From Bradymonas sediminis (GTDB lineage Bacteria; Myxococcota_A; Bradymonadia; Bradymonadales; Bradymonadaceae): 64,000 nt of DNA. Positions within the stretch are counted from its first letter, which is position 1. Every line of letters begins with the position of its first letter. Positions 3,097 to 41,262 of this stretch are shown piece by piece. The translations under genes were made by a program, and so were the position numbers. The notes under the pieces are model-generated. The model worked only from the letters and a program-made list of their open reading frames with translations. It made no database searches and was not told the DNA's origin. The stretch covers positions 2,891,804 to 2,955,803 of the forward strand of contig NZ_CP030032.1 of assembly GCF_003258315.1 (NCBI RefSeq). Reading direction: 5' to 3'.

Positions 3097-3153
3097 GATA
3101 TATCCGTGAAATGGGTCGTTGCGATGATGGAGCCCAGACGCTGAACACACGAA

Positions 3154-4236: not shown

Positions 4237-4456
4237 ATTTGGTATGCTGACCGTAAGGTAATGTCGTTTTATCGAGTAAAATGGGAGCGAACCGGCGCAT
4301 GGTGCGCGCGGCGATGCGAAAGCCCTCGCTGCCGAGTATAACCCGCGCACCCTATCGAATCGACGGGCGAATTCCAACATCCCAAGTTTTCTCCTTGCAG
4401 CGAAGATACCGCATGCATTTACGCACGAAACTCACTGACCCACGAGCCGCGACGCG

Positions 4457-7327
4457 ATGATCTCCGAGACCCCACAAACGATTCAGCGCATCACCGAGAG
4501 TTTTTTACGCATTCGCGAACGCTGGGGCCAGGCGGCGCTGGAAGGCGAGGATAGCCTGGTCATCGCGCAGCAATTGGCGGCGAGCACCGACGCCTTCCTG
4601 CTGGAAGTCTGGCGCGGCGCGGCCACGCCCGCGTTCTTTGACGCGACCGCCCTGCTCGCCGTGGGGAGCTACGGGCGCCGGGAGATGGCGCTGGAGAGCG
4701 ATATCGACCTGGTCATCGAGGTGGGGCGCCCCGAGCTGCTCGAAGACCCCGAGTTCCACCACGCCATCGAGCGCTTTATGACCTGGTGCCGCGACGCGCG
4801 CCTCAAGCTCGGTCACGCGGTGCGCACTCCGGCGCAGACCCGCCAGGAATTCGAGTCCGACCTGCGCACGCCCATCTCGGTGCTCGACGCGCGCCTGCTC
4901 GACGGCCAGCGCGGGCGCGGGGCCGACGAGATCGCCTGGGAGAGCGTGCGCGGGCCGGAGGCCGCCGAGTATCTGCGCGCCCAGGACGAGGGCATCGAAT
5001 TTGTCGAGACCCTGATGCAGGGCTACCGGGCGCGCACCAAACGAAACGGCAAGACGATCTATTTGCTCGAGCCCGATATCAAATCCGGCGAAGGCGGGCT
5101 GCGCGACCTCAATTGCATTCACTGGGCCGGGCGGGTGCGCTGGCAATTTTCGCCGGGCGAGGAGAGTTATCCCGAGGTCGGCTGGACCGAGGAGTTTCGC
5201 CAGGTCTACCGCGAGGGGCTTCGGTGGATCCTCGGGCTGCGCAATATTTTGCACCTCAATCATGGCCGAAAAAACGACCGCCTGACCTTCCCCGACCAGG
5301 AAAAGATCGCCGCGATTCTTCTGGAAGAAGATGACCTGGGCGAGGGGACCCTGGAGGAGTCGAGCACGGCCGATCTGGCCGACCTGTCGCCGAGCGACCG
5401 CGCCACCCGCGCCGAGAGCCTGATGCGGCGCCACTACCGCGAGGCGCGCGCCATCAGCATGGTCGCCCAGCGTTTTTTGCGCCGCTGGCAACTTCTTGAG
5501 GGCGGCGAGGAGGTCGAGATCAACCACCTCTTCGGGCTTATCAACGGGCAGCTCGGGCTCAAATCATATTATATCAACCCCGACCCGCTCGACCCCTCAG
5601 ACGCCCAAACCCGGCTCATCACCCCGGAGCGCGAGCTGTCCCCCGACGCCGTCTTCGACGCGCTGGAGCTTGCCGCAGAGCATGATGCCATGCTCGGGCC
5701 GGTGCTCGAATTGAGCATCGCCCAGAGCGTCGAGACCTGGGGCGAGGCCCAGCGAAATGACCGCGAGATTTGCCGGCGACTTTATCATCTGCTCACCGAC
5801 CCGCACACTTCGCCGCGCACGTCGCGCCGCCTGCTTGAGAACGGTATTCTGACCAAGCTTATCCCGGAGTTCGAGCCCATCGTCTGCCACGTGCAGCACG
5901 ATGTCTATCATATCTACACCACCGATATTCACTCGCTAAAATGCCTGGAGAAAGCGCGCAAGCTTGTCTCGGGCGCGGCCGATACCGAGGCCGAGCATTG
6001 GCAGCTCTTCCGGCGCATCGGCGCGCAGGTCAAGCGCAAGGAGGTCTTCTTGTTGGCGGCGCTCTTCCACGATATTGGCAAGAATCGCGGCGGCGACCAC
6101 AGCCGGCGCGGCGCCGAGATGATGGACGATATCGGCCGGCGCCTGGGGCTCAACTGGGGCGATATCGACCGGTTGGCGTTCCTGGTACGCGAGCATCTTT
6201 CGCTGTCGGACACCGCGCGCCGGCGCGACCTGTCGGACTCGCGCGTGGTGCGCGAATTGGCCGCGCGCCTGCGCACGGTCGAGGCGCTCAATGAGCTCAC
6301 CGCGCTGACCTTTTGCGATATGGCCACCGTCGGCCCCAATATCATGACCGATTGGAACGCCGCGCTCATCAGCGAGCTCTACCACCGGCTGCGCCACGTC
6401 ATCGAGAACGGGCTGGAGAGCCTGTGGCGAGACCACGAGACCCTGGTCGAGCAGCAGCGCGCAGCGCTGGTGGAGCTCTTGCAAAGAACCGACGCCGAGC
6501 GCGCCGAAGATGGCGCCCCGAAGGCCCGGCGCCCCTCGGCCGGCCAACTTCGAAGCGAGCTCGACGCGTTCGTGCGCGACGTCCCCACCGACCACTTCGC
6601 CACCGCCCCGACCGAGGAATTGCTGCGCCAATTCGAGACCTATCGGCGGGCCGCAGCCTCGGACAAACCCGAGGTCATGTGCACCCCGCTGGTGGACCGC
6701 GGCGTCACCGAAATCATTATCTGCGCCCACGATGTACCGGGCACACTCGCAAAGATCGCCGGGGTCATCAGCGCGTCGGGGCTCAATATTATGGCCGCCG
6801 AGATCGTGACGACCGCCAGCGGGCGCACCCTCGACATCTTCCAGGTCAGCCAGGGCGCCCCGCTCGCCCTGCTGCTCTCGCAGCGCGAAGCCCAGGCGCC
6901 CGCCGACCCCGCGCGCCTGGAGCGCGTCGCCCAGACCCTGGTTGAGACTCTCGCATCGGGCAATTCGGTCGAAACGCTGCTTAAAAAACGCATCGCCCAG
7001 ACACGCCTGGAGCCGCGCCCCACCCCGCCGGTGCGCACCCTGGTCGACGCGCGCCAGGATATCAGCGACAGCTTCACCGTCATCGAAATCCGCGCCCCGG
7101 ACCGCGTCGGCCTGCTCTACGAGATCGCGCGCACCCTGTGGGAAAACGGCCTGAGCACCCACGTCTCAAAGATCGACAGCCTCGGCAATCAGATCATCGA
7201 CACCTTCTATGTCGAGGGGGCCTACGGCGGAAAACTCACGGACCGCCAGACCGCCGACATCGTCAACGCGCTCTACGAGACCATCGAGAACTCGCCCTAC
7301 CTGGACGACCCGCCGCAGGAGAACTAA
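4457..7327 (+). CDS. glnD: Bifunctional [protein-PII] uridylyltransferase / uridylyl-removing enzyme GlnD
   Basis: GlnD senses glutamine and adds or removes UMP on PII proteins, controlling nitrogen assimilation. All four expected domains are present in 956 aa. The nucleotidyltransferase domain has GSYGRREM (70-77) and the metal-binding D82-x-D84. The HD phosphohydrolase domain has LFHDIGKNRGGDHS near 536-549. Two C-terminal ACT domains lie at about 750-830 (DVPGTLAKIAGVI) and 873-950 (PDRVGLLYEIARTLW). Catalytic residues are intact, so both activities are expected. GSYGRREM differs slightly from the usual GGYGRGEL. No PII or glutamine synthetase gene lies in the window. Confidence 0.95.
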   Translation: MISETPQTIQRITESFLRIRERWGQAALEGEDSLVIAQQLAASTDAFLLEVWRGAATPAFFDATALLAVGSYGRREMALESDIDLVIEVGRPELLEDPEFHHAIERFMTWCRDARLKLGHAVRTPAQTRQEFESDLRTPISVLDARLLDGQRGRGADEIAWESVRGPEAAEYLRAQDEGIEFVETLMQGYRARTKRNGKTIYLLEPDIKSGEGGLRDLNCIHWAGRVRWQFSPGEESYPEVGWTEEFRQVYREGLRWILGLRNILHLNHGRKNDRLTFPDQEKIAAILLEEDDLGEGTLEESSTADLADLSPSDRATRAESLMRRHYREARAISMVAQRFLRRWQLLEGGEEVEINHLFGLINGQLGLKSYYINPDPLDPSDAQTRLITPERELSPDAVFDALELAAEHDAMLGPVLELSIAQSVETWGEAQRNDREICRRLYHLLTDPHTSPRTSRRLLENGILTKLIPEFEPIVCHVQHDVYHIYTTDIHSLKCLEKARKLVSGAADTEAEHWQLFRRIGAQVKRKEVFLLAALFHDIGKNRGGDHSRRGAEMMDDIGRRLGLNWGDIDRLAFLVREHLSLSDTARRRDLSDSRVVRELAARLRTVEALNELTALTFCDMATVGPNIMTDWNAALISELYHRLRHVIENGLESLWRDHETLVEQQRAALVELLQRTDAERAEDGAPKARRPSAGQLRSELDAFVRDVPTDHFATAPTEELLRQFETYRRAAASDKPEVMCTPLVDRGVTEIIICAHDVPGTLAKIAGVISASGLNIMAAEIVTTASGRTLDIFQVSQGAPLALLLSQREAQAPADPARLERVAQTLVETLASGNSVETLLKKRIAQTRLEPRPTPPVRTLVDARQDISDSFTVIEIRAPDRVGLLYEIARTLWENGLSTHVSKIDSLGNQIIDTFYVEGAYGGKLTDRQTADIVNALYETIENSPYLDDPPQEN

Positions 7328-13232: not shown

Positions 13233-15236
13233 TTAGGGATAGCCAGCGGTGACGGTGTCGGCCGGCACCACCGTGTGGTTGGTCCCGCCCAGAAAACCGA
13301 CAAGCCAGAATTGGTCATTGGTCAGCAACTTATCGCGCGCCTCATAGGTCAACACACCGTTATTACGAACCTCGACGCTCGCGTAGGCGGGGCCATTTCC
13401 ATAGTCGCTATAGTGATGGACGCCGATTTTATAGGTCACGTCCTCCAGGTTATTATGGGTGATATTCTCCGGCCCGGGGCCGTAAAGGTCATCGATATCC
13501 AGGGTCGGGTTGCCGCCGGGGACGTTCCAGTCGGGCGTCTTATTATTATAATAGCAATCCCAGCCATTCGAGTTCATCGCCCAGCGGCTTCCGTTGGGGT
13601 GCATATAATGCAGGTCGAGGTCATTGTCCGCGCCACCGTTTGAGGTCCAGGTCAACTGGATATGAATATCGGAGTCGGAGTTCACCATGATGGTGACGAT
13701 CGCCGGCTCCCCGCAGCTCACGGTGTTCTGGTCGTCGTAGACCTTAAGCTCCACTTTATACTCACCGTTGATATCCATGAACATCGTCGGGCGCGGGTCG
13801 CCCGTGGGCAAGATGCGCGACGAGGATGCGGCCGGGGCCGACAGGATGGTCCACTCATAGCGCTGGACGCTCCCGTCCGGGTCGCTGCTGGCGCTGCCGT
13901 CGAATTGAATGGTCTCAAGCGGCAGCGATTGGATATCGGTGCCCGCGCGCCCACCCGGGCTGACCTTGGCGGTCGCCACGGCGGTCGGACAAGCATTATT
14001 GGTGCCCCGGCCGTTCAGCGGCAGGTTCAGCACGCCCTGGGACGCGTCGTTGCTCTTAATGCGCACCGCGCCCCGATATAATACCTCCTGAGTCGGGCTG
14101 AAGTTCACCACGAAGTTCGCGCGCGCACCCTCGTCGAGGACGAACTCGTCGTCGGGCAGACCGGCGGGTAGGCTTCCATCTTTAATCGCGTAGACCCCGC
14201 CGCCATCGTCGGTGATCTCGATATCCTGCACTTTGAGCTTCGAGCTCGGGCTGCAGTTGGTGATGGTCACGGTTTTTTGGGTGACGTTTCCGATCGAGCT
14301 CAGCGCGAAGTCAACCTCGCCAACCGGCGAGACCTCGATGCAGGGCGTGCCGCTATTTCCGAGCAAGCTGACCGAATATTCGGGACGACTCGGGTCGTCA
14401 CTCTTGAAGACAAGCTGGTCGTCTTCGGGGTTATTCGTATCCGGCGCGAACCACACACGCAGGTCGAAGCTCTCGGTCGGCGCAAGCGTCGCGGGCCACT
14501 GCTTGGTGTCGTTATCGGGGTCGGGCGCCAGGCCGTCGGCGATCTCCTGCGGGGTGGGCTGCGGGATCGAGAAGTCAAAACGCGAGTTATTGCCCTTCAC
14601 CTTGATCTCGCTGATGCTCAGCGGAGCTTCACCGGTATTCTGCACCTGGGTCATCTTCCAGGCGCCGCGCCACGGGCCGTCCCCTGAGGAGCCCGGCCCC
14701 GGCGGCGTCACGCGCGGGAAGGAGACCGTCGCCGGCGAGAAGATCTGCGGCGCCAGCCCCAACGTGGAGACAGGGATGACAAATTGCGGGTTGCTCGGGT
14801 CATTGCTCTCGATGACGATCGAGCCCGAGTCGGGGTTCTGATTGACCGGCTTATAGCGCACGCGAACGATATGCGTGACGCCGGGTTCCAGGTTAAGCTT
14901 TTGCTCGCCCCAGCCCTCGCCGTCCTTAAAAAACTCCTGGTCCCGATCGAGCGGCGGATCGCCTTCGTCTTCTTTCAACGCGATATTGGTGATGCGCAGC
15001 GTCGACTCACCGGTGTTCGAGATCATGACGTTGACGCTGGTCTCCTGGCCCAGGGCGACGGTCTCGAAGGTAATGGGGTTGGGCGTCGCCGCGACTTGGC
15101 CGATCTCTTTGCCGCCAATGCCTCCGCCACCGCCGTCGGTCCCATCGTCGTCGTCGCTGCAACCCGTGCTGAGACCCAGGCTCAGGGCGAGCAACAAGCC
15201 TATCAAGATGGTACTTCGCCGCTCTAAAAGAGCCAT
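13233..15236 (-). CDS. ASH/PKD/DUF2135-like lipoprotein, long paralogue 1
   Basis: A 667-aa lipoprotein starting MALLERRSTILIGLLLALS, with lipobox LSTGC and an acidic Asp/Gly linker. Domain order: ASH-1 (about 45-155), ASH-2 (about 160-290, with KMTQVQNTGEAPLSISEI), ASH-3 (about 290-415), PKD-like (about 420-525, QFDGSASSDPDGSVQRYEWT) and a C-terminal DUF2135/YfaP-like domain (DNDLDLHYMHPNGSRW, then YGPGPENI). ASH and PKD modules are usual in extracellular binding proteins. The start at 15236 is set by GGAGAA and by alignment with the two long paralogues; an in-frame extension to 15332 is not conserved. It has its own promoter and terminator. Confidence 0.88.
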   Translation of the reverse strand: MALLERRSTILIGLLLALSLGLSTGCSDDDDGTDGGGGGIGGKEIGQVAATPNPITFETVALGQETSVNVMISNTGESTLRITNIALKEDEGDPPLDRDQEFFKDGEGWGEQKLNLEPGVTHIVRVRYKPVNQNPDSGSIVIESNDPSNPQFVIPVSTLGLAPQIFSPATVSFPRVTPPGPGSSGDGPWRGAWKMTQVQNTGEAPLSISEIKVKGNNSRFDFSIPQPTPQEIADGLAPDPDNDTKQWPATLAPTESFDLRVWFAPDTNNPEDDQLVFKSDDPSRPEYSVSLLGNSGTPCIEVSPVGEVDFALSSIGNVTQKTVTITNCSPSSKLKVQDIEITDDGGGVYAIKDGSLPAGLPDDEFVLDEGARANFVVNFSPTQEVLYRGAVRIKSNDASQGVLNLPLNGRGTNNACPTAVATAKVSPGGRAGTDIQSLPLETIQFDGSASSDPDGSVQRYEWTILSAPAASSSRILPTGDPRPTMFMDINGEYKVELKVYDDQNTVSCGEPAIVTIMVNSDSDIHIQLTWTSNGGADNDLDLHYMHPNGSRWAMNSNGWDCYYNNKTPDWNVPGGNPTLDIDDLYGPGPENITHNNLEDVTYKIGVHHYSDYGNGPAYASVEVRNNGVLTYEARDKLLTNDQFWLVGFLGGTNHTVVPADTVTAGYP

Positions 15237-15364
15237 ACTTATTCTCCGATTCTGCAGGATGCCCTTGTCGAGCCCGTTATTTGCAATATGTTTTTGCCAA
15301 ATATCTGATTTCGCAACCAAGAAACGACCCACGCGTCGAAAAAGCAGGCGCCCTCGCGGGGCGA

Positions 15365-15393
15365 ACTATATCGAGGCGCTACTTTTGAGTCAA
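15365..15393 (-). promoter_or_regulatory. Sigma70-type promoter of long paralogue 1
   Basis: TTGACT (15388-15393), a 17-bp spacer and TATAGT (15365-15370) on the minus strand. The spacing is exactly repeated before the other two long paralogues. Confidence 0.85.
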
Positions 15394-15444
15394 CTTTGGG
15401 GCCTCGCCCTAGCAAACTGGCGCTGATCGCAGGCTTCGATAACC

Positions 15445-15476
15445 AAAAAAAGGACACCCAATGGGTGTCCTTTTTT
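15445..15476 (-). terminator. Intrinsic terminator of long paralogue 2
   Basis: An A-tract plus GGACACCC stem (from 15445) pairs with GGGTGTCC plus a T tract (to 15476) around an AAT loop, giving U-rich ends on both strands. It lies about 65 bp past the stop at 15541. Confidence 0.85.
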
Positions 15477-15540
15477 CTTTTGGAGGTGTCTAAATGTTGC
15501 TCACCCGCAGGGCGACGCAACACTCAGATCAAATGAGCCA

Positions 15541-17547
15541 TTACGGGTAGCCCGCCGTAACCTGGTCGACGGCGGCGACCGTGCGGCTTCGACCGTTCAA
15601 CAGGCCCACGAGCCAGAACTGGTCATTATGCAGCATCTTATCGCGCGCTGCGAAGGTCAGGATACCGCGGTTTCGCACCTCAATCGACGCATACGCCGGG
15701 CCGTTGCCATGGTCACTATAGTAGTGAACACCGATCTTATAGGTCACGTTCTCCAGGTTGGAGTGACTGATATTCTCCGGGCCGGGACCATTGAGGTCAT
15801 CGATATCCAGGGTCGGGTTGCCCCCGGGGACGTTCCAATTCGGCGTCTTATTGTTCCAATGACAATCCCAACCATTGGCGTTAATCGCCCAGCGGTTCCC
15901 GTTCGGGTGCAGGTAGTGCAGGTCGACGTCATTGTCGGCCACGCCGTTGGAGGTCCAGGTCAACTGGATATGAATATCGGTCTCGGAGTTCACCAGGATC
16001 GTGACGATCGCCGGCTCCCCACAGCTAACGGTGTTCTGGTCATCGTAGACCTTAAGCTCCACTTTATACTCACCGTTGATATCCATGAACATCGTCGGGC
16101 TAGAGTCGCCTGTGGGCAAGATGCGCGACGAAGATGCAGCCGGCGCCGACAGGATCGTCCACTCGTAGCGCTGAATGGCTCCGTCCGGATCGCTACTTCC
16201 AGTGCCGTCGAATTGGATGGTCTCAAGCGGCAGCGCCTGGATATTGGTGCCCGCGCGTCCACCCGGGGTGACCTTGGCGGTCGCCACGGCGGTCGGACAG
16301 GCGTTATTGGTACCACGGCCGTTAAGCGGCAGGTTCAGCGTGGACTGCGACGGGTCATTGCTCTTGATGCGGACCATGCCGGTATAAGCGGCTTCCTGGG
16401 TCGGGCTGAAGGTCACGACGAAGTTCGCGCGCCCGCCCTCATCAAGGACAAATTCCTCGGCGGGCAAACCGGCGGGCAAGCTGCCATCTTTAATCGCGAA
16501 GACGCCGCCGCCATCGTCGGTGATCTCGATATCCTGCAATTTGAGCTTCGAGCTCGGGCTGCAGTTGGTGATGGTGACCGTCTTCTGGCTGACGTTGCCG
16601 ATCGAGCTCAGCGCGAAGTCGACCTCGCCAACCGGCGACACCTCGATGCACGGCGAGCCGCTATTGCCGATCAGGTTGACCGAATATTCCGGGCTGGTGG
16701 GGTCGTCACTCTTGAAGACGAGCTCGTCGTTCTCCGGGTTATTGGTGTCCGGCGCGAACCAGACGCGAACGTCGAAGCTCTCGGTCGGCGCGAGCGAGGC
16801 GGGCCACTGCTTGGTGTCGTTGTCGGGGTCAGGCGCCAGGCCTTCGGCGATCTCCTCAGCCGTGGGCTGCGGGATCGAGAAGTCAAAGCGCGAGTTATTG
16901 CCCTTCACCTTGATCTCGCTGATGCTCAGCGGGGCTTCACCGGTATTCTGCACCTGGGTCATCTTCCAGGCACCGCGCCACGGGCCGTCCCCCGAGGAGC
17001 CCGGCCCCGGAGGCGTCACGCGCGGGAAGGAGACGGTCGCCGGCGAGAAGATTTTCGGCGCCAATCCCTGCGTCGAGACCGGGATGACATATTGCGGGTT
17101 GCTCGGGTCGTTACTCTCGATAAGGACCGCGCCGGTGTCAGGGTTCTGATTGACCGGTTTATAGCGCACGCGAACGATATGCGTGACGCCGGGTTCCAGG
17201 TTGAGGGTTTGCTCTCCCCAGCCCTCGCCGTCTTTGAAAAACTCCTGCTCCATATCGCGCGGGGGCGCGCCGACGTCCTCTTTCAACGCGATATTGCTAA
17301 TGCGCAGTGTGGACTCACCGGTATTCGAGATCATCACGTTAACGCTGGTTTCTTCGCCCAGCGCGACGGTCTCGAAGGTGATGGGGTTGGGCGTGGCCGA
17401 AACCTGGCCGAGCTTTTTGCTGCCGATGCTACCACCGCCACCGCCGTCCGAACTGGTGTCGTCGTCGCTGCAGCCCGCGGTGAAACCCAGGCTCAGGGCG
17501 AGCAATAAGCCTATCAAGATGGTACTTCGCCGCTCTAAAAGAGCCAT
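15541..17547 (-). CDS. ASH/PKD/DUF2135-like lipoprotein, long paralogue 2
   Basis: A 668-aa lipoprotein nearly collinear with its two neighbours: the MALLERRSTILIGLLLALS signal, lipobox FTAGC, three ASH-like domains, one PKD-like domain (QFDGTGSSDPDGAIQRYEWT) and a C-terminal YfaP-like domain (DNDVDLHYLHPNGNRW, GPGPENISHSNLE). Long stretches, such as ASH-2, are almost identical to paralogue 1, which indicates recent duplication or gene conversion. The start at 17547 follows CGGAGAAATAGT. Likely lipid-anchored and surface exposed; ligand unknown. Confidence 0.88.
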   Translation of the reverse strand: MALLERRSTILIGLLLALSLGFTAGCSDDDTSSDGGGGGSIGSKKLGQVSATPNPITFETVALGEETSVNVMISNTGESTLRISNIALKEDVGAPPRDMEQEFFKDGEGWGEQTLNLEPGVTHIVRVRYKPVNQNPDTGAVLIESNDPSNPQYVIPVSTQGLAPKIFSPATVSFPRVTPPGPGSSGDGPWRGAWKMTQVQNTGEAPLSISEIKVKGNNSRFDFSIPQPTAEEIAEGLAPDPDNDTKQWPASLAPTESFDVRVWFAPDTNNPENDELVFKSDDPTSPEYSVNLIGNSGSPCIEVSPVGEVDFALSSIGNVSQKTVTITNCSPSSKLKLQDIEITDDGGGVFAIKDGSLPAGLPAEEFVLDEGGRANFVVTFSPTQEAAYTGMVRIKSNDPSQSTLNLPLNGRGTNNACPTAVATAKVTPGGRAGTNIQALPLETIQFDGTGSSDPDGAIQRYEWTILSAPAASSSRILPTGDSSPTMFMDINGEYKVELKVYDDQNTVSCGEPAIVTILVNSETDIHIQLTWTSNGVADNDVDLHYLHPNGNRWAINANGWDCHWNNKTPNWNVPGGNPTLDIDDLNGPGPENISHSNLENVTYKIGVHYYSDHGNGPAYASIEVRNRGILTFAARDKMLHNDQFWLVGLLNGRSRTVAAVDQVTAGYP

Positions 17548-17675
17548 ACTATTTCTCCGTTTTTGCATGATGCCCTTGTCGAGCCTGTTATTTGCAATAT
17601 TTATTCGTCAATTATCTAATTTCGCGCTCAAGAAACGGCCCGCGCATCGAAAAGGCAGGCGCTCCCGAATTGCGA

Positions 17676-17704
17676 ACTATATCGAGAGGGCTGTTTTGAG
17701 TCAA
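17676..17704 (-). promoter_or_regulatory. Sigma70-type promoter of long paralogue 2
   Basis: TTGACT (17699-17704), a 17-bp spacer and TATAGT (17676-17681) on the minus strand, embedded in sequence conserved with the promoter of paralogue 1. Confidence 0.85.
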
Positions 17705-17760
17705 CTTTAGGGCTTTTGTCCTTATAATGTGGCCTGAGTAGAACGCTCGGGCCACACGAA

Positions 17761-17787
17761 AAAAGGACACCCAATGGGTGCCCTTTT
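17761..17787 (-). terminator. Intrinsic terminator of long paralogue 3
   Basis: AAAAGGACACCC pairs with GGGTGCCCTTTT around an AAT loop, with one A-C mismatch. It is the same terminator type as its neighbours, about 65 bp past the stop at 17853. Confidence 0.78.
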
Positions 17788-17852
17788 CTCCTTTTACGCA
17801 CTTCAACCTTCTTAAACTACCAGGGCATCGGAACACGCCGGCGCCCTGTCAC

Positions 17853-19859
17853 TTAGGGATAATCAGGCGTGACGATGTCCGCCGCGGCGACCGTGCGGCT
17901 TCGACCGTTCAAATACCCGACCAGCCAGAATTGCTTATGCGTGAGCATCTTATCGCGCGCTGCGAAGGTCAGGATACCGCGGTTACGCACCTCAACTGTC
18001 GCGTATGCCGGGCCGTTTCCATGGTCACTAAAATAGTGAACGCCGATCTTATAGGTCACGTTCTCCAGGTTCGAATGGCTAATATTCTCGGGCCCGGGCC
18101 CCTGGAGGTCATCGATATCCAGGGTCGGATTACCACCCGGTACGTTCCAGTTGGGGGTCTTATTGCCATAATAACAATCCCAACCACCTGCATTCGACGC
18201 CCAGCGACTTGCACTGGGGTGCAGATAATGCAGGTCGACGTCGTTGTTTTGGACACCGTTGGAGGTCCAGGTGAGCTGGATATGAATATCGGTGTCGGAG
18301 TTCACCAGAATCGTGATGATCGCCGGCTCCCCGCAACTAACGGTGTTCTGGTCATCGAAGACCTTCAGCTCTACTTTATACTCACCGTTGATATCCATGA
18401 ACATCTCCGGGGTCGCGCTGCCGTTGGGCAGGATGCGCGAGGAGGATGCAGCCGGCGCCGACAGAATCGTCCACTCATAGCGCTGGATGGTGCCGTCCGG
18501 ATCGCTACTTCCCGTGCCGTCGAATTGGATTGTCTCAAGCGGCAGCGCCTGGATGCTGGTGCCAGCGCGTCCACCGGGGACGACCTTGGCGGTCGCGACG
18601 GCGGTCGGGCAGGCGTTGTTGGTGCCGCGGCCGTTGAGCGGCAGATCCAGCGTGGACTGCGACGGGTCATCGCTCTTGATGCGGACCATGCCGGTATAAG
18701 CGGCTTCGTCGGTCGGGCTGAAGGTCACCACGAAGTTCGCGCGCCCACCCTCGTCGAGGATAAACGGCTCTTCGGGAAGGCCCACCGGCAGGCTACCCTC
18801 TTTAATCTCAAAGACGCCGCCGCCATCGTCGGTCATCTCAATATCCTGCAATTTGAGCTTCGAGCTCGGGCTGCAGTTGGTGATGGTGACCGTCTTCTGG
18901 CTGACGTTGCCGATCGAGCTGAGCGCGAAGTCGACCTCACCCACCGGCGACACCTCGATGCACGGCGAGCCGCTATTTCCGACCAGGTTGACCGAATATT
19001 CAGGGGTCGTCGGGTCGTCGCTCTTGAAGATAAGTTCGTCGTTCTCGGGGTTATTGGTGTCCGGCGCGAACCAGACGCGCACGTCGAAGCGCTCGTTGGG
19101 CGCGAGCGCCGCTGGCCACTGCTTGGTGTCGTTGTCGGGGTCAGGCGCCAGGCCATCGGCGATCTCTTCAGCGGTCGGCTGCGGGATCGAGAAGTCAAAG
19201 CGCGAGTTATTACCTTTTACCGCGATCTCGCTGATGGTCAGCGGAGCTTCACCGGTATTCTGCACCTGGGTCATCTTCCAGGCACCGCGCCACGGACCAT
19301 CTTCGGTCGAGGAGTCCGGCCCCGGCGGCGTCACGCGCGGAAAGGAGACCGTCGCCGGCGAGAAGATCTTGGGCGCCAATCCCTGCGTGGTGATCGGAAT
19401 CACGTATTGCGGATTGCTCGGGTCGTTACTCTCGATAAGCACCGAACCCGTGTCCGGGTTCTGGTTCACCGGCTTATAACGCACGCTCACGATATGGGTC
19501 GCGCCGGGCTCAAGGCTAAGGTTTTGCTTGCCCCATCCGTCGCCCTCTCTGAAGAACTCCTCCTCCATATCCTGCGGCGGCGCGCCGACGTTCTCTCGCA
19601 GCGCAATATTAGTAATGCGCAGCGCAGACTCGCCGGAGTTCGAAATCAACACGTTGACGTTGGTTTCCTCACCCAGCGCGACCGTCTCAAAGGTGATCGG
19701 GTTCGGCGTGGCCGTAACCTGTCCGAGCTTTTTGCTGCTGATATTTTCGTTCTTGTTATCGGTACCGCCATCATCGTCGCTGCACGCCGTGGCGACCCCA
19801 AGACTCAGGGCCAGCACGATGCCAATCAAGATGCTGCTTCGTCGCTCAAAAAGAGCCAT
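17853..19859 (-). CDS. ASH/PKD/DUF2135-like lipoprotein, long paralogue 3
   Basis: A 668-aa lipoprotein with the same plan as the two before it: the MALFERRSSILIGIVLALS signal, a lipobox-like ATAC, an Asn/Asp-rich linker, three ASH-like domains, one PKD-like domain and a C-terminal YfaP-like domain (NNDVDLHYLHPSASRW, QGPGPENI). It is somewhat more diverged, with substitutions clustered in the linker and the C-terminal domain. The start at 19859 follows CGGAGAAATAGT. A very long plus-strand frame opposite this gene is a codon-bias shadow, not a gene. Confidence 0.88.
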   Translation of the reverse strand: MALFERRSSILIGIVLALSLGVATACSDDDGGTDNKNENISSKKLGQVTATPNPITFETVALGEETNVNVLISNSGESALRITNIALRENVGAPPQDMEEEFFREGDGWGKQNLSLEPGATHIVSVRYKPVNQNPDTGSVLIESNDPSNPQYVIPITTQGLAPKIFSPATVSFPRVTPPGPDSSTEDGPWRGAWKMTQVQNTGEAPLTISEIAVKGNNSRFDFSIPQPTAEEIADGLAPDPDNDTKQWPAALAPNERFDVRVWFAPDTNNPENDELIFKSDDPTTPEYSVNLVGNSGSPCIEVSPVGEVDFALSSIGNVSQKTVTITNCSPSSKLKLQDIEMTDDGGGVFEIKEGSLPVGLPEEPFILDEGGRANFVVTFSPTDEAAYTGMVRIKSDDPSQSTLDLPLNGRGTNNACPTAVATAKVVPGGRAGTSIQALPLETIQFDGTGSSDPDGTIQRYEWTILSAPAASSSRILPNGSATPEMFMDINGEYKVELKVFDDQNTVSCGEPAIITILVNSDTDIHIQLTWTSNGVQNNDVDLHYLHPSASRWASNAGGWDCYYGNKTPNWNVPGGNPTLDIDDLQGPGPENISHSNLENVTYKIGVHYFSDHGNGPAYATVEVRNRGILTFAARDKMLTHKQFWLVGYLNGRSRTVAAADIVTPDYP

Positions 19860-19975
19860 ACTATTTCTCCGTTGTTGCATGATGCCCCTATCGAGCGCGC
19901 TCATCAGAATATTTTTTCGCTAAGATTCTCGGCCGAAAAACCTTTTGGGCACTTTAAAGACCCAAGAATGCGTGG

Positions 19976-33594: not shown

Positions 33595-35028
33595 TCACCG
33601 AGCCTGCACCCCCGCGGCGTGCAGGCTCGCCAGGGTCTGCAGCAGCACCCGCACGCCCGACCAGCGCACCGCGTGGGCGTGGGCCACCAGGTTGCGGGTC
33701 CTGCGAATCTCTTCGATGCGCGAGCGCGACACCGGAAAATCCTTCTGCAGCGGCGAATGAAAGATCACATATTGCAATTGACCGAAGGACGCGTGGTCAA
33801 TCGGCTCGGTGGGTTCGGCATGACTCTGATAGCGCCGAGCGCGGTTACGCAGCTCCTCCAACTCGGCGTCTCGCCCGAGGTTGTTGAGGATCTCGGCGAG
33901 ATTCCCGGCCTGTTTGCAGCAAAATAGCATCTCCATCTCGACCATCCGGGTCAGACTCGACACCCAGCTGGCTAATAGCGGGTTCTTTCGCGCGGCGAGC
34001 CTGAAGTTGCGCGCCTTCTCGTCGGTGATCTCCCACTTCTCTCGAAGCTTCTTATCCGCCAGGATCTGGCGCGCCGCGACCGAGGTCACCCGCAGGTGAA
34101 GCCCGTTTGGCGGGATCCACGCGACCCCGGCGCCGAGCAGCTCCTGTAGCAGCGCATCCGGGCACGCCCGAATAATCCCCGTCGACAGCAACACACGCGT
34201 GCCGCAGGTCTGCGCGCACGCGTCAAAGAGCGCGCTGACATGCGCGGGCTTGCCGCCGGCGTCGGCCAGGAGGTCGTCGAATTTTCGCTCAATCTTATCG
34301 TCGGCGTCATCGTCCGCGATCCAAAACGAGCGCAGCTCGTCGATATCCGAGAGCCGCTCCATATACTCCGGCGCGCCGGATGCCTCCCAATAGAGCCGAA
34401 GCCCCAGGTAGCGCTCAAAACCCGAGTTCTCCAGGCGAGACTCGGTCATACCGATGGTGGTAAAGGCGCTCTCGAAGCGCAGCGGCTTCACCTGCGGTGT
34501 CCACGGCTGCCAGACCACCTCGCCGGGCTCAAACGACCGCGGGCTCACCTCTCCCGGCCTGGCGGCCGGCGAAGCCCAATAACTCTGCAGCAAGACGAAG
34601 TTGAACTTCCCCTCGAGATCGCGGGTAAACTCGGCGATCTCCTCGCAGGTCTGGAAGACCTCGGCGCGCTGGGCGTCGCTGATATCATCGCTGATAATCA
34701 GCCCCACCGTGCGCGAGCGGCGAAAGCGATCGGTGTGGTGGACGACCAGCTCCTCCGCGCTCTCGGGGGCCGAATCCGGCAGGCGCAAAAGGCGCGCGAT
34801 CTCGCTGAGCACCGCCGCGCTGCTGTCGATTCGAAAGTCGCGGCTGCTCGGGAAATAGAGCAGATTCTCAGCCTCATCGGCCGCAGCGGCGTCCAAGAGC
34901 TCAAGGCACTCGTAGGCGTCGAACCCGGGCGGCAGAACCACTCGCCAGACCAACTCGTCCGAGAGGCGTCGCGCCAACTGCTGCACGAACGCGTCGAAGA
35001 CCGAAAGACAGGATATTCGTCGTCTCAT
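33595..35028 (-). CDS. Protein with C-terminal HEPN-like domain (third gene of the STAND operon)
   Basis: A 477-aa protein I do not recognise over most of its length. The N-terminal two thirds (1-340) is mixed alpha/beta with no clear motif. The last ~125 residues are helical and contain RIEEIRRTRNLVAHAHAVRW, where RNLVAH (445-450) fits the R-x4-H signature of HEPN nucleases and lies between two predicted helices as in that fold. HEPN domains are commonly RNase effectors of toxin-antitoxin and defence systems. The start overlaps the upstream NTPase stop by ATGA, so translation is coupled. A binding-only HEPN or chance motif remains possible. Confidence 0.75.
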   Translation of the reverse strand: MRRRISCLSVFDAFVQQLARRLSDELVWRVVLPPGFDAYECLELLDAAAADEAENLLYFPSSRDFRIDSSAAVLSEIARLLRLPDSAPESAEELVVHHTDRFRRSRTVGLIISDDISDAQRAEVFQTCEEIAEFTRDLEGKFNFVLLQSYWASPAARPGEVSPRSFEPGEVVWQPWTPQVKPLRFESAFTTIGMTESRLENSGFERYLGLRLYWEASGAPEYMERLSDIDELRSFWIADDDADDKIERKFDDLLADAGGKPAHVSALFDACAQTCGTRVLLSTGIIRACPDALLQELLGAGVAWIPPNGLHLRVTSVAARQILADKKLREKWEITDEKARNFRLAARKNPLLASWVSSLTRMVEMEMLFCCKQAGNLAEILNNLGRDAELEELRNRARRYQSHAEPTEPIDHASFGQLQYVIFHSPLQKDFPVSRSRIEEIRRTRNLVAHAHAVRWSGVRVLLQTLASLHAAGVQAR

Positions 35029-38000
35029 AGCGCCTCACCTGCTCCATAGAGCCTGGCCAGCGGGCCCTCCATATCGAGCTGCACCAACCGCGCGCCCTCC
35101 TCGGTCACCCGCCCGATCAGGTCGAGCAATTGCAAGACCTCGAGCGCGTCACGCATCGCCCCGGCGTCCAGCCCGAGCGCCTCTCTGAGGTGCGGCAGGA
35201 CGAGGTTCTCCACGAGTTCGCGCTCAAACGCCCACAGGTCTTCAGCCGCCGCGAAGCGGTAGAATCCGCCGATAAACTCGGCCTCAACCGGGCTCAACTC
35301 CGACAAGAGCGCCTGGCGGATGGTCTCGTTTTGGCGAACCTTCTCGAATTTTTTCACATCCTCGGGCGACGGCAAATACTCGCGCGCGGTCTGATGGTTG
35401 CGGCGCACGAACTCCGCGAACTCGCGCACCAACGGCAAATACCCGCCGGTGGCCCGGCGCACATCGCGCGAGCAATGGTCGTCGAAGATGATCGCGTGGT
35501 CCTCTTCCTGGGGCAAGAAGCGATGCCCCCAGCGCACGATATCGGCCGCGCGCAGCCGCTCCAGCCGGATCGTGTCGAAATTTTCGGCGAAGAGCCGGCC
35601 CACATAGGCCCGGGCAAGCGGCGCCCCGCCAAACGCAAAGACATAGCGGTCACGCTCGTTGAGGCTGCGCGAAATGTCGAGCAACGCCCCCGACTCCGCC
35701 AGCTTATCCGCCTGGGTGATGACCAGGGTTTCCAGGTTGTTTTTGACCATAAAATCGGCCAATGACAACGTCTTTCGGGTCTCTTTCAGCTCACGCTTCA
35801 ACACCGCCCGCACATCTTCGACCGACTCGCACTGCGCCCCCGACAGCAGGAATACCCGGGTGTCCACGGAGTAATTCAGCGCCTCCGCCTCCCGATAGTC
35901 CTCGCCGCCCGAGTCGGCCTGCCCGAATAACTTTTTAGCGATATAATCCCCGCGCGTCTCGGGCAGCCCGATGAAGAGCAAATTCTGCTTCTCCTCGGAC
36001 TCTCGATTATGCGTCACCCGCTCCAGATGCTCGTTGGGCAGGGTCACGAAGCGCCGGTGCTGCCCCTGGACCGGGTCGGTCACATAGGACAGCAGCTCCT
36101 CAAGCGTCTGTTCGAAGGTCGGCGACTCCAGCAGCATGCGCGCAAAAGTCTGGTTCACAAACTCATAGCGCGCGCCGTGGCTTCGAATCAGCCCGAGGGC
36201 CTTGAGCCGGGCGATCAGCGCGCCGATATTTTTCTCGTCAAAATAGTCGTTAAATTGCTCGCCATACCACTTCAGCAGCTCCGCCTTGAGGCTGGCCAGG
36301 CTGAAGTCCTCCAGGCGCAGCGTCGACTCGCTGCCGGTCCCGCAACTGTAGAGGATCAGGTAGACCATCAGCTTCAGGCGCGGGTTCTCGTTGAGGTTCA
36401 GGCTCAGCACCTGGTGGAGGCGGTCGCGGAGTTGGTCGTCGCGGCACACCACCTCCACATCCCCCGCCTCGATGGTGATGACCTCGTCCTCCAGGCTGCC
36501 GGTGCGCCGCGCCTGAGTGCGCTCCATCAGCCGAGCGCAGACCTCTTGAATAAGCAGCGGATGCCCGCCGGTGAACTCCAGGATGCGGTCGACGCCGGCC
36601 TCGGAGGCGAACGAGAACGCGAAGTCCGCGAAGGGCTCCACGATCAGCGCGCGCGCGTCCGAATCCTCCAGCGTGCTCAGCTGCTTGATGCCAAACCAGT
36701 TCGCGAACGCGCCGTTCTCGGAGATGACCTGATTATGAATGGTCTGAAACCCCGCAAACACCACCCGCAGGCGCCCCGGATGGTTGAACTCACGGTCACG
36801 CAGCAGCCAGGCGATGCTGTGGTCGCGCGGCTTTCGCGCGTCGTCGGCGGCGAAGCGGTCGGCCTCGTCGATGAGAATCCACAGCCGAGCGCCGTCTTGC
36901 TCAAAGAAGGTGTCCAGGACCTTGCCGATGAGGTTGAGCCGCTGGGCCTCCAGCTCCCCCTTCTGCGCGGGCGACTGGGCCGAGGTGTCCTCAATCCGGT
37001 CGACCTTCGCCTTGACGCGCTTGGCCTCCGCGGGCGGCAAGAGGTCCGCCAGCTCATTGGTCAGCGCCCGAAAGAGCTGCGCGCGTGAGTTCGAGATTTT
37101 AATCGCCCGGTGCAGCGGGTGCGTCGTGTCCGACTCGATATCGCGATAGATGCGGTCCAAGATGGAGGATTTGCCCATCATTCGACCGCTGAAAAGCACC
37201 GTACTGCCCTTCTCATCCTTGAGGCTCTCGATGACCGCCCGGCGCCCCTTAAACATCTCGGCCGACACCGGTCCGCCCAGCTGCCACGGCTTGACCGCGT
37301 GGAACGGCGAGCGCGGCAAAATCACCTGCTGAAAGCCCAACTCCCGCTGCTCTAGCGGGGCTTCGCAGAGGCGCAGAAGATCGTAATTGTCAAAATGCGC
37401 GACATCGTCGGCCAGGCGCAATTGCTCCATCAGGCTGCGGTTGAGCCGGCCCGGGTAGTAGACAATCGGGAAGCAATCATCCGGCGCCTGATTGAGGAGC
37501 TCGGCGATCGTCGAAGGGCTCGCCTTCGACGGGATGATGAGCTGAATCCCGCTGCCAAAGCGCGAGCTGCGAAACGACGCCACCCGCGGGGTGCCAAATT
37601 CGATGGTATAGAGCGCGCCGCGCCGCGAGCGCACCGGTCTGGACAGGTCGCCGTTGAGCCCCAAAAACTTAAATAATTGCTCCGCCGACGCCTCCACGTC
37701 GAGGCGGCTTCGCCGCACCGACAGCGCCTCGAATAGCGCAATCGCCTCGTCGCGCACGGCCGGTGAGTCAATCTCCGGGAAGGACTTCGGCTGGCGAAAT
37801 TGCCGCGCGATTCCCGCGGCGTCCGGCACGCCATTGAGGTCAAAATCCACCCACGGCCGAACCACCCGCTGGCGGAAATGCCCGGCATGGTGCAGGCTCT
37901 TGAGGTCGTCGCGGCTCAGCGTGCCGTCTTTGGCGCGCCGCGCAAGGTGCAGCATCTTGCGCGCGGTCGGCAGGTTTTCTCGGGACCGGAGCAATTGCCC

Positions 38001-38579
38001 CAGACGCTGCAGGGCCTGGGCGAGGTCGCGGTTTTGGGTATTTTGGGAGGACTCGATAAGCCCCTGGTATTCCTGTTGAATGACATGAATCTCGTTGGCG
38101 ATCACCTCTTCGAGATAGGTCTCCTCCTCGCGCAACCGCCGGATCACCCACCCCGGGCGCAACTCCCGAGCCTGCTCGTCTTCCTCGAGTTTTCGAATCC
38201 GCTCACCCCGCTCAATCAACGAGCCCTCTTCGGTCCCCTTGAGCAAAAGCTGCAGCCCCATCACGCGTCGGCGCACCTGCTGCAGCTGCTGCTGGCACGC
38301 GCTCCTGCGCGTGGTGATGCGCATGCGCTCGCGTTTTCCGAATCCGGCGAGGTCGTGAAATTTATTGGCCGCCGCGATCTCCCCATCCTCCAGAAGTCGG
38401 GCAAAAGTCGAGCTATCTCCATCGGCCGGGAGCGCCTCCTCGAGCACATCGCCCAGCAGCTCGCGGGCCGCCCATTGCTGGCTCCCGGACTCCACCCCGA
38501 CCTGTGAGAGTCGGGCCAATAGCGCCGGGTAGCGCCGGATCTCGGCCAATGCTTCCAATGATATCGCGTCAAGCTTCAT
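35025..38579 (-). CDS. STAND-type P-loop NTPase, 1184 aa (second gene of the operon)
   Basis: A large multidomain protein. Residues 1-90 are helical, 90-190 a probable coiled coil, and 250-430 mixed. The NTPase core lies at about 440-690: the entry motif MFKGRRAVIESL, Walker A SGRMMGKSS (464-472, Lys470), Walker B LWILIDEAD (566-574, Asp571-Glu572), the sensor-like VFAGFQ, and GGHPLLIQEV (671-680), the G-x-P motif typical of STAND NTPases. A winged-helix-like segment follows (about 740-815). A second half (860-1060) mimics the fold but has lost Walker A (LLFIGLPETRGDYIAK), keeping a Walker B-like LVITQADK and GGYLPLVREF. No nuclease motif was seen. It overlaps both neighbours. Confidence 0.85.
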   Translation of the reverse strand: MKLDAISLEALAEIRRYPALLARLSQVGVESGSQQWAARELLGDVLEEALPADGDSSTFARLLEDGEIAAANKFHDLAGFGKRERMRITTRRSACQQQLQQVRRRVMGLQLLLKGTEEGSLIERGERIRKLEEDEQARELRPGWVIRRLREEETYLEEVIANEIHVIQQEYQGLIESSQNTQNRDLAQALQRLGQLLRSRENLPTARKMLHLARRAKDGTLSRDDLKSLHHAGHFRQRVVRPWVDFDLNGVPDAAGIARQFRQPKSFPEIDSPAVRDEAIALFEALSVRRSRLDVEASAEQLFKFLGLNGDLSRPVRSRRGALYTIEFGTPRVASFRSSRFGSGIQLIIPSKASPSTIAELLNQAPDDCFPIVYYPGRLNRSLMEQLRLADDVAHFDNYDLLRLCEAPLEQRELGFQQVILPRSPFHAVKPWQLGGPVSAEMFKGRRAVIESLKDEKGSTVLFSGRMMGKSSILDRIYRDIESDTTHPLHRAIKISNSRAQLFRALTNELADLLPPAEAKRVKAKVDRIEDTSAQSPAQKGELEAQRLNLIGKVLDTFFEQDGARLWILIDEADRFAADDARKPRDHSIAWLLRDREFNHPGRLRVVFAGFQTIHNQVISENGAFANWFGIKQLSTLEDSDARALIVEPFADFAFSFASEAGVDRILEFTGGHPLLIQEVCARLMERTQARRTGSLEDEVITIEAGDVEVVCRDDQLRDRLHQVLSLNLNENPRLKLMVYLILYSCGTGSESTLRLEDFSLASLKAELLKWYGEQFNDYFDEKNIGALIARLKALGLIRSHGARYEFVNQTFARMLLESPTFEQTLEELLSYVTDPVQGQHRRFVTLPNEHLERVTHNRESEEKQNLLFIGLPETRGDYIAKKLFGQADSGGEDYREAEALNYSVDTRVFLLSGAQCESVEDVRAVLKRELKETRKTLSLADFMVKNNLETLVITQADKLAESGALLDISRSLNERDRYVFAFGGAPLARAYVGRLFAENFDTIRLERLRAADIVRWGHRFLPQEEDHAIIFDDHCSRDVRRATGGYLPLVREFAEFVRRNHQTAREYLPSPEDVKKFEKVRQNETIRQALLSELSPVEAEFIGGFYRFAAAEDLWAFERELVENLVLPHLREALGLDAGAMRDALEVLQLLDLIGRVTEEGARLVQLDMEGPLARLYGAGEAL

Positions 38580-41262
38580 GGCTATCCTCCAGGTCCTTCA
38601 ATCGCTTGAGCAGCACGCGGGTCGCAAAGGTGCTCGGGGAGCGTCGGGCGCTGAGCTCATCGAGCGTGCGCTGCCCGTCTTTGATCGCGTCGCTGACCGC
38701 GGCGGCGTCCAAAATATTCTTCTTTCGCGCGTCCCTATTCTTGAGCGACTCCACCGCGCGCGCGGCGTGGCGCAGCTCCTCAAGGAAGGTGCTCAGCCGG
38801 CTCAAAATATTATTGCGATAATGGGAGTGGATCTCGTCCCACCCCTGCGCGCTCCCGGCCAACTCACCGGAGCTTGGCCAGCGCTGCGGGAGTTGATGGC
38901 CCTCGACGGTCTTCCATAACTTCAGCGGCGCGGAGTCTCCGGTGACCAGATCGCGCCAGAAGCGACTCACCTGGGTATTATTGAAGTTCGCCCGACCCGG
39001 GTCGATGGCCGTCTCGGCGCGCTTCAGGTGCGAATCGTATGCCAAAATGATGGATTCGCGCGGGCGCTCGCTCGAGATCTGCGGCTGCTGGCCCCGGTTG
39101 GCCGGTTGAAAGAGGCGGTTCAAACAGAAGCGGTAGAACGGCGACTCATTGATCCACCCCTCCTCAAAAACGCGCGGCGGGATAATCTTGATGACCTCGA
39201 CGCAGAACTGCGCAGCTTCCCCCAGCAACCCCACACAGAGCCAACTCAGCGCGAATCGATGCGCGGGCGTCGACATATAGGCGAGTTGGTAAATATCGCT
39301 GGAGAGCGTGTCGGCGCCGGCGTCGACCAGGTGAGCGTTGGGCTCCGAGACACGCGCGGCGACCCAGCAAAGCCAGGAGGGAATCAACGCGAATTCCTGG
39401 GCCAGTTGCGGGTCGCCCAACTGCATATCTTCGGCGTACCGCGCCGACAGCAGGGCGCGAAGATGCTCGCCGCGCAGCAACCAGCGGCGCTGCTGCTCGA
39501 CGAGCAAGATGGCGGGGGGGAAGTCGGTCGCGGCCCCAGGATTTTCGAGCAGCAGCTTAATCTGAGCGGCCAACGCTTCCTGCTCGAGCGCTTCGATCTG
39601 CCCGCAGACTTCGGACGCCTCGGACATCGGCGAGGTTTCGTCATAGGTGTCGCTTAGACCTGCGAGCTCCGCGACGTCCTCGACAACTTCAGACTCCTCG
39701 ACGACTTCGGACTCTTCGACGATCTCCGATCCCTCGACGACTTCGGACTCTTCGACGACCACCGATTCCTCGACGACCTCCGACTCCTCGACGACCTCCG
39801 ACTCCTCGACGACCTCCGACTCCTCGACGACCTCCGACTCCTCGACGACCTCCGACTCTTCGACCATCGTCTCGGCGTCCAACGCCAGGCCCTGCTCTTC
39901 CGGCGGCGAGATCTCAGCCCAATCGACCCATTGATAGGCCTGCTTCTGCAACCCATCGACGAAGTTATAGCTAAAGCGCTGCTTTAAGACCTCCATGGGC
40001 TCGGGATGCGCGTATTGGCCGAGGTCGACGAATAAAGTCGCCAGGGCATGCAGCAGCGGGAACTCGGCGCAGCCAGCCTCCGAGCTCTGCCAATCATAGG
40101 ATTCCAGCGCTTCGACCCGGGCCTCAATCACCGCCAAATCGTGGACCGGCGGCCGCGGCTCAAGGCTTCGCCCAACCGCCAGAAGCTGCGCCCGAAGATC
40201 ATCCTGCACCCCCGCGCGAAGATGCTGCGCGCAGGCCTCTTCGACGCACTCACGGACGCTGTCTAAGCCATCGAGAAAACACGCGAGTTCATACTCCGTC
40301 CACTTCTCGACGTCCTTTTTTCGCAGCTCCGACAACGGCTTTTTCAACCGCAGGTCGACCTGATCGAGCATCCCAACGAGCTCGCCAATTCGCTCTCGGA
40401 ACCCATTCTGCGCGCTCTGAATAAAGTGGTCTAAGCTATGAACGGTCCCTCGCATCGTCGCCCACTTCAGCGACGACGGTGGGTCGGGCGCTTTGCCTGC
40501 GGTAGGCGCGCGCCTGCGTTTTCGCTGCTTCGATTTCGGCTGGGGTTTGGGCGCCGGATTGAGCAGATGATACAGCCGCCCAAAGACGGTCGAGCGCATT
40601 TGATCGACCCCGGCGTCGTACTCATCAATCCGCGCATCCAGCATTTGATAGCGACACCATTTCACCCAGAAATCGGCGTATTTCTCGCCCAGCGCCACCT
40701 GCGCAATATGCGTGCGTGGGGCGCGCAAAACCTCGAAGAACGGGTCACGCAATAGCTCCGGGAACTCCGCGTCCCCAGGGCAGCTCAAATACGCCCACAG
40801 CACATCCTCCCAATAGAATTGATAGGTCCCCTCCCCCATCTTATTGATCGCCTGCTGAAACCGTAACGCCCCCGCCCGCGCGGGCGCCCGGGACTTCTCC
40901 ATCAAGCGCTGAATATACCAATCCTCTAAAAGATCGTCGAAAACCGCCTTCTTTCCGACGTATTTCTCCAGCCGCCCCCAATGCTCCCGTATATAGTCGG
41001 CGAGCTCGGGCTCCGATGCGTCTTCGGAAAACTCCAGCCCAGCCTTCTGTAGAAATGGCCGCACCCTCGCAGGCACACCCGCGGCGATCTCTACCAGAAG
41101 CTCCCCCTGACGGAGACTCTCTAGGAGAACCTCGCTGACACCCTGGAACTGGACCGAGATGACCTCTTTTTCGACCTTTAATTCACCCGCGGCGAGCTCC
41201 ATTGCTGTGGATGAAAGCGACGACGATTGCGCAGAATCTACAAATGAGCTCGATAACGACAT
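38569..41262 (-). CDS. Helical protein with VVEESE repeats (first gene of the STAND operon)
   Basis: An 897-aa protein of unknown family with no signal peptide or TM segment. The N-terminus is Ser-rich, 30-235 is helical, and 236-256 is a Lys/Arg-rich patch (PKSKQRKRRRAP). Residues 467-528 are a repeat of the hexapeptide VVEESE encoded by an 18-bp minisatellite, probably an extended acidic linker. The C-terminal part (about 550-897) is helical. The stop overlaps the start of the NTPase gene by 11 bp. No catalytic motif is visible. Its position suggests an adaptor, sensor or regulator for the NTPase (inference). Confidence 0.78.
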   Translation of the reverse strand: MSLSSSFVDSAQSSSLSSTAMELAAGELKVEKEVISVQFQGVSEVLLESLRQGELLVEIAAGVPARVRPFLQKAGLEFSEDASEPELADYIREHWGRLEKYVGKKAVFDDLLEDWYIQRLMEKSRAPARAGALRFQQAINKMGEGTYQFYWEDVLWAYLSCPGDAEFPELLRDPFFEVLRAPRTHIAQVALGEKYADFWVKWCRYQMLDARIDEYDAGVDQMRSTVFGRLYHLLNPAPKPQPKSKQRKRRRAPTAGKAPDPPSSLKWATMRGTVHSLDHFIQSAQNGFRERIGELVGMLDQVDLRLKKPLSELRKKDVEKWTEYELACFLDGLDSVRECVEEACAQHLRAGVQDDLRAQLLAVGRSLEPRPPVHDLAVIEARVEALESYDWQSSEAGCAEFPLLHALATLFVDLGQYAHPEPMEVLKQRFSYNFVDGLQKQAYQWVDWAEISPPEEQGLALDAETMVEESEVVEESEVVEESEVVEESEVVEESEVVEESVVVEESEVVEGSEIVEESEVVEESEVVEDVAELAGLSDTYDETSPMSEASEVCGQIEALEQEALAAQIKLLLENPGAATDFPPAILLVEQQRRWLLRGEHLRALLSARYAEDMQLGDPQLAQEFALIPSWLCWVAARVSEPNAHLVDAGADTLSSDIYQLAYMSTPAHRFALSWLCVGLLGEAAQFCVEVIKIIPPRVFEEGWINESPFYRFCLNRLFQPANRGQQPQISSERPRESIILAYDSHLKRAETAIDPGRANFNNTQVSRFWRDLVTGDSAPLKLWKTVEGHQLPQRWPSSGELAGSAQGWDEIHSHYRNNILSRLSTFLEELRHAARAVESLKNRDARKKNILDAAAVSDAIKDGQRTLDELSARRSPSTFATRVLLKRLKDLEDSHEA
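39681..39860. repeat. 18-bp coding minisatellite, 10 units
   Basis: Ten tandem 18-bp units of the type CGACGACCTCCGACTCCT on the plus strand. Units 6-9 are identical; the rest differ by one to four bases. The frame is preserved (18 is a multiple of 3), so copy-number change only lengthens or shortens the linker of the 897-aa protein. Confidence 0.95.

Follow-up and report, generated by a model that had tools for sequence, protein, structure and literature searches.

This analysis concerns an operon of three genes in a 64-kb stretch (hereafter the window) of the single-contig genome (5.05 Mb) of Bradymonas sediminis. The genes are designated A, B and C from 5' to 3', the one-piece STAND protein found in related loci in place of A and B is termed the giant, and the loci of relatives carry the prefix L. 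We conclude that the operon is probably an NLR-like anti-invader system, built on the type of molecular switch found in plant and animal immune receptors and most likely acting by abortive infection. On the sequence side, this assignment draws on the operon arrangement, the intact NTPase motifs of B, the lost P-loop of C and its invariant HEPN motif, together with the occurrence of the giant-C pair in many phyla, its patchy and plasmid-borne distribution and the defence neighbourhoods of the relatives. The most economical reading would be an NLR-like switch (A+B) that recruits an RNase (C) via the dead STAND domain of C.

The three genes lie on the minus strand, as do all features of the operon given below, and overlap as a previous sequence-only reading of this DNA had described. 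Gene A (38569-41262) encodes 897 residues assigned to no Pfam, NCBIfam or PADLOC family, gene B (35025-38579) a STAND NTPase of 1184 residues, and gene C (33595-35028) a 477-residue protein with a predicted inactive STAND/ORC-type domain and a HEPN-like domain. A and B overlap by 11 bp (38569-38579), and B and C by 4 bp (ATGA, 35025-35028). The G+C content at third codon positions (GC3) is 0.76-0.82 in A, B and C, and their codon usage correlates with that of neighbouring housekeeping genes (r 0.86-0.92). As G+C content by codon position and codon usage fit the genome, A, B and C look like real genes of native composition. A sequencing frameshift as the origin of the A/B split is unlikely, because B has its own ATG with a Shine-Dalgarno-like GGAGG upstream and an overlapping stop codon ends A. 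None of the three proteins reached the curated cut-offs of Pfam and NCBIfam or matched a PADLOC model; the only NCBIfam/PADLOC hits were low-complexity matches between A and YdcK, RNase E and other models, and PDB sequence searches gave no meaningful match.

The STAND core of B, including a winged helix, was placed at residues 419-831 (36087-37325) from its predicted-structure neighbours. The three motifs named in the sequence-only reading could all be located in this one core: Walker A (SGRMMGKSS, residues 464-472, 37164-37190), a Walker B of the hhhhDE type (LWILIDEAD, 566-574, 36858-36884) and the GxP motif (GGHPLL, 671-676, 36552-36569). Residues G465, R466, G469, K470, D571, E572 and D574 show no variation among 31 homologues. 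AlphaFold models were built from alignments of window and locus proteins, and the structure library search was confined to residues 419-831 of B and 1-216 of C. The B model had a mean predicted local distance difference test (pLDDT) score of 70, and its searched segment matched the archaeal STAND proteins 2qen and 2fna, ORC/Cdc6, TnsC, CED-4 and plant resistosomes with Z scores of 11-14. The C-terminal part of B (residues 836-1184, 35028-36074) probably forms a second STAND-like domain that is degenerate and has no P-loop, as suggested by the AlphaFold model and by an hhalign comparison with the first STAND domain of B (probability 72%, E 3e-5).

C had been described as a HEPN-like protein that ends in RNLVAH, and this much proved sound. 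The motif (33679-33696; R445, N446, H450) is present, all 38 aligned rows have its R and H unchanged, and it constitutes an R-x4-6-H motif inside a C-terminal helical, HEPN-like effector domain (residues 353-477, 33598-33972) recognized from the predicted structure and a Pfam scan. HEPN_Swt1 (PF18731) was the top Pfam family for C, matching 6 of the 38 members (best 1.8e-5), and the gathering cut-off was reached by no C member (best 25.4 bits versus 27.5). The description was, however, incomplete. According to the predicted structure, C also contains a second, nucleotide-free STAND/ORC-type domain, which makes up its N-terminal half. Residues 1-216 (34381-35028) are predicted to adopt an ORC/Cdc6-STAND fold without Walker A; this part of the model (mean pLDDT of C, 68) matched MuB, ORC, TnsC, NRC4 and CED-4 with Z scores of 9-11. 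Despite this predicted fold, no GK[ST] is present in C. It is the predicted structure that ties the N-terminus of C to the STAND fold, since a sequence profile comparison with the STAND domains of B gave no link.

Direct scans of genome contigs and viral contigs with B alone found nothing because B is too divergent, and a family alignment was therefore needed. A search with B revealed weak matches (25-30% identity within the STAND core) in seven of the related genomes searched beyond the family. Most of them have the core inside one giant of 1758-2154 residues, and a C-like gene (~360-430 residues) follows directly. A giant alignment then retrieved 544 relatives (one genome per species), of which 80 loci were kept. 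The giant and C occur together in 40-odd of the 80 loci, typically overlapping by 4 bp (ATGA), with C terminating in RN-x-x-[AS]-H. These HEPN-type loci, with giants of about 1760-2480 residues, are distributed over about 16 phyla: Myxococcota, Bacillota, Chloroflexota, Acidobacteriota, Actinomycetota, Pseudomonadota, Planctomycetota, Cyanobacteriota, Verrucomicrobiota, Bacteroidota, Armatimonadota, Latescibacterota, Thermodesulfobacteriota, Methylomirabilota, Tectimicrobiota and Rhodothermota (on a plasmid). When profiles were built without the window proteins and examined against a background of 462 proteins, the profile of 30 giants matched B over residues 32-1160 (E 6e-62) and the profile of 37 C proteins matched C (E 8e-7), which places the membership of B and C in the family beyond chance.

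The homology of B thus covers nearly its full length and corresponds to the C-terminal ~1150 residues of the giants. For A, sequence homology to the N-terminus of the giants was undetected, and a search for relatives with A returned low-complexity matches only. Nevertheless, A+B (2081 residues) is as long as a giant, and B aligns with its N-terminal part immediately upstream of the giants' STAND core; A therefore takes the place of the N-terminal ~800 residues, as a positional counterpart whose sequence homology is undetectable. The label of a repeat-linker protein given to A is apt in that an acidic VVEESE repeat linker is found at about residues 467-530 (39673-39864). A low-complexity acidic stretch occurs at a comparable place, near residues 200-600, in several giants.

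As A and B are one protein in the relatives, the core module has two genes, and a split of the first one gives the three genes of the window. The three genes of what had been presented as an unrecognized three-component system are real here, but the relatives have two components, with A and B fused, and a similar two-gene operon was predicted in 2021 (PMC8195603). Judged by these alignments, the window operon is a gene-split, divergent member of the giant-C family. In a tree, the window and L022, from the same class of Myxococcota, formed a very divergent pair, the exact placement of which is unsure because of long branches. The large proteins of L025 and L027 were set aside as paralogues rather than giants, because they match B in the STAND core only and have a different N-terminus. 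These proteins (L025:2221-7614 and L027:4674-10043) combine a beta-propeller-like lipoprotein N-terminus with the related STAND core, and in L027 an NTPase-kinase fusion protein is encoded next.

The partner of the giant is not always a HEPN protein. In one actinomycete clade of giants (L081, L085, L092, L096, L098, L101, L106, L107, L108 and L122), the next gene, mostly with a 4-bp overlap, encodes a protein of 675-695 residues in the place of C. Metallo-beta-lactamase, beta-CASP and RMMBL domains were found in the three tested, and the remainder group with them by BLAST. That HEPN is exchanged here for another nuclease family of the RNA-processing type gives the best indirect evidence for RNA as the target. 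Two alphaproteobacterial plasmid loci have a C with an extra AAA_33 kinase-like domain. At L140 (3973-15773, Microvirga plasmid pMVF16-3), the giant STAND core is found within a 3394-residue protein annotated as "RNaseH domain-containing", a name suggestive of a pPIWI-RE module, and the protein encoded next is an inactive-STAND-HEPN protein that likewise has the extra AAA_33 kinase domain. Cyanobacterial giants adjoin a helicase of ~1000-1100 residues (PLD-SNF2 in two tested), located upstream in L124, L128, L131, L132, L135 and L127 and downstream in L088, L103 and L169, apparently without a HEPN partner.

We surveyed the neighbourhoods of the relatives for defence genes, as the sequence-only reading had proposed. 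HEPN-type loci were found beside DruE, Dsr2, a PLD-SNF2 helicase, type IIG restriction-modification, HmaB methylase, Avs2, CRISPR I-E, DrmMI-like and DpdE/DrmD-like genes, and ThiF with patatin. In a matched comparison with PADLOC models, 68 neighbours at nine loci were set against 68 genes elsewhere in the same genomes. Among the matches listed for the neighbours were Avs2, Dsr2, a methylase and a restriction enzyme of type II, type IIG, DarG and OLD/GajA-type proteins; the control genes matched chiefly kinase-type models, with isolated PD-T4-6 and MkoA. Each of the two tables comprises 25 families of single-protein matches and displays a contrast, not counts of complete systems. The proposal of a STAND switch with a nuclease effector in defence is supported by profile and structure matches, the invariant effector motif, the defence neighbours relative to the control, and plasmid carriage. 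Two loci can be described individually. In L078 (Planktothrix), Avs2 (1458-6098) and a 1951-residue protein with a DarT-like domain (14123-19975) lie on opposite sides of the giant and C. In L165 (Agrobacterium leguminum pTiCFBP4996), the giant and a HEPN/AAA_33 protein adjoin a WYL protein and a CBASS-looking ThiF-patatin pair.

These features suggest how the system may act. Together, A and B would stand in for a single giant. Detecting the invader or keeping the switch off would fall to the variable N-terminal part (A and the coiled coil of B), and a trigger sensed there would lead to nucleotide exchange and oligomerization by the STAND core of B (residues 419-831). C would dock on the resulting B ring via its own nucleotide-free STAND/ORC-type domain, giving a putative hetero-oligomer. 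Among docked C proteins, HEPN domains would meet and their R-x4-H motifs form an active RNase, which would cut cellular and/or viral RNA and stop growth. We infer by extension a role of the window copy in phage defence.

A conserved cellular module outside defence, for example in stress-responsive RNA processing, had been kept as an alternative in the sequence-only reading. The native-like codon usage and G+C content and the housekeeping neighbours agree with it; a gatA-gatB-mtnA-zinc-ribbon block precedes the operon of the window. Its distribution, however, is patchy. No relatives of B were found in 20 other genomes of the family, so that 1 of 21 carries the operon, and two of them (G010 and G006) keep the gat-mtnA block with a dehydrogenase-like or threonine-synthase-like gene in the operon's position. 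This absence, from the family and from the syntenic site, contradicts a conserved cellular module. At the phylum level, 22 of 379 genomes match the giant profile at E 1e-8, partial STAND-core matches included, and in a cyanobacterial class sample the C profile matched 1 genome of 145. Giants are also present on 27 plasmid records, and no giant match was obtained in phage records. We consider a cellular role very improbable.

The plasmid-borne relatives lead to another explanation, that of a toxin-antitoxin or plasmid-maintenance module in which C is an RNase toxin checked by the ATPase B, with addiction rather than invader sensing as its main role. HEPN toxins are common in toxin-antitoxin pairs, and this counts for the explanation. 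Most loci are nevertheless chromosomal and relatives lie among defence genes, and, to our knowledge, a STAND protein of ~2000 residues with a long variable N-terminal part far exceeds any known antitoxin; we regard addiction as unlikely. The operon might instead serve as a module for nucleic-acid remodelling or restriction, its AAA+ proteins binding DNA in the manner of ORC, TnsC and MuB and cooperating with helicases and nucleases encoded nearby (Druantia-like, PLD-SNF2), with HEPN as a back-up. ORC, MuB and TnsC are indeed among the best structural neighbours, DruE directly follows the giant-C pair in L028, and PLD-SNF2 lies beside the cyanobacterial giants and after C in L073 and L084. On the other side, neither most HEPN-type loci nor the window have a helicase beside the pair, and such a module seems rather improbable.

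Several points weigh against the anti-invader reading itself. A has no detectable relatives, C of the window matches HEPN_Swt1 weakly (E 0.058) with all members below the gathering score, and the structural search of C was confined to residues 1-216, ahead of its HEPN-like domain. The window lineage is also very divergent, with a highest STAND-core identity of 28%, and the function of the window copy could have drifted for this reason. Finally, the operon stands alone between housekeeping genes, as had been remarked previously, and a Pfam scan of the flanking genes showed no known defence gene among them. Elsewhere in the window (13233-19904), three tandem paralogous lipoprotein-like genes have a common N-terminal MAL(L/F)ERRS signal peptide.

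If the proposed NLR-like switch is correct, a STAND ring that recruits an RNase via an inactive sister STAND would represent modular effector wiring, comparable to recruitment in the apoptosome and resistosome. The family is broad and mostly annotated as hypothetical protein, and defence surveys miss it because the 2023 PADLOC library holds no matching model. From the apparent exchange of HEPN for a beta-CASP nuclease, RNA cleavage can be predicted as the output, which is directly testable. More tentatively, and we would not presume it, the giant-STAND/C family might be a major undescribed class of NLR-like immunity, distinct from the nSTAND2 operons discussed below and spread over ~16 phyla, in which a dead STAND brings an interchangeable RNase (HEPN, HEPN with kinase, or beta-CASP) to an active STAND ring and the window is a gene-split deep lineage.

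Among known systems, Avs/AVAST also uses a STAND NTPase as an anti-phage switch, and an Avs2 gene adjoins the relative L078. The effector here is, however, encoded separately and has a STAND-like domain of its own, a long N-terminal half is present instead of the C-terminal repeat sensor of Avs, and the Avs profiles of PADLOC did not match A, B or C. BREX-related DUF499/HEPN systems and the BREX iSTAND proteins (BrxB/BrxF) are similar in combining an ORC-type AAA+ ATPase with a HEPN RNase and in having small inactive STAND proteins. In contrast, the window operon lacks a methylase or helicase, and DUF499, BrxC and BrxB found no match in A, B and C with Pfam and PADLOC. The C-terminal HEPN domain of C, with its RN-x3-H motif, resembles the Swt1-like HEPN family (PF18731), for which STAND fusions have been noted (Anantharaman et al. 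2013, PMC3710099), but matches it below the Pfam cut-off. Druantia differs in that no DruE is present in the window operon; DruE lies only beside the relatives L028 and L094.

The closest counterpart is nSTAND2 (Kaur et al. 2021, PMC8195603, Fig. 6C), a predicted mobile two-gene operon that pairs an active STAND with an inactive one, the latter carrying mostly a GT4 or HEPN fusion. A hetero-toroid was proposed for the two proteins, which are described as nearer to CR-ATPase, DAP3 and RNA12 than to classical STAND and as having a conserved arginine finger in both, at a position absent from the text; conserved Arg columns exist in the B alignment. The name nSTAND2 was found in no other relevant paper within the literature searched. 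In the operon and its relatives, we likewise find adjacent STAND-module genes (B/C with a 4-bp overlap here, giant and C elsewhere), eroded NTP-binding motifs in one partner, a fusion of the inactive STAND with HEPN, and mobility. The window differs in having the first protein divided between two genes, and the size of this protein, ~2000 residues, is unmentioned in the PMC8195603 text. No GT4 effector was seen in the 80 loci by a motif scan, a weak test, the other effectors being beta-CASP and HEPN with AAA_33. By comparison of descriptions, the main text of PMC8195603 being without sequences, the window operon and its relatives are probably of the same kind as nSTAND2. We file the window operon as a new, split, divergent form of an already predicted STAND-HEPN kind.

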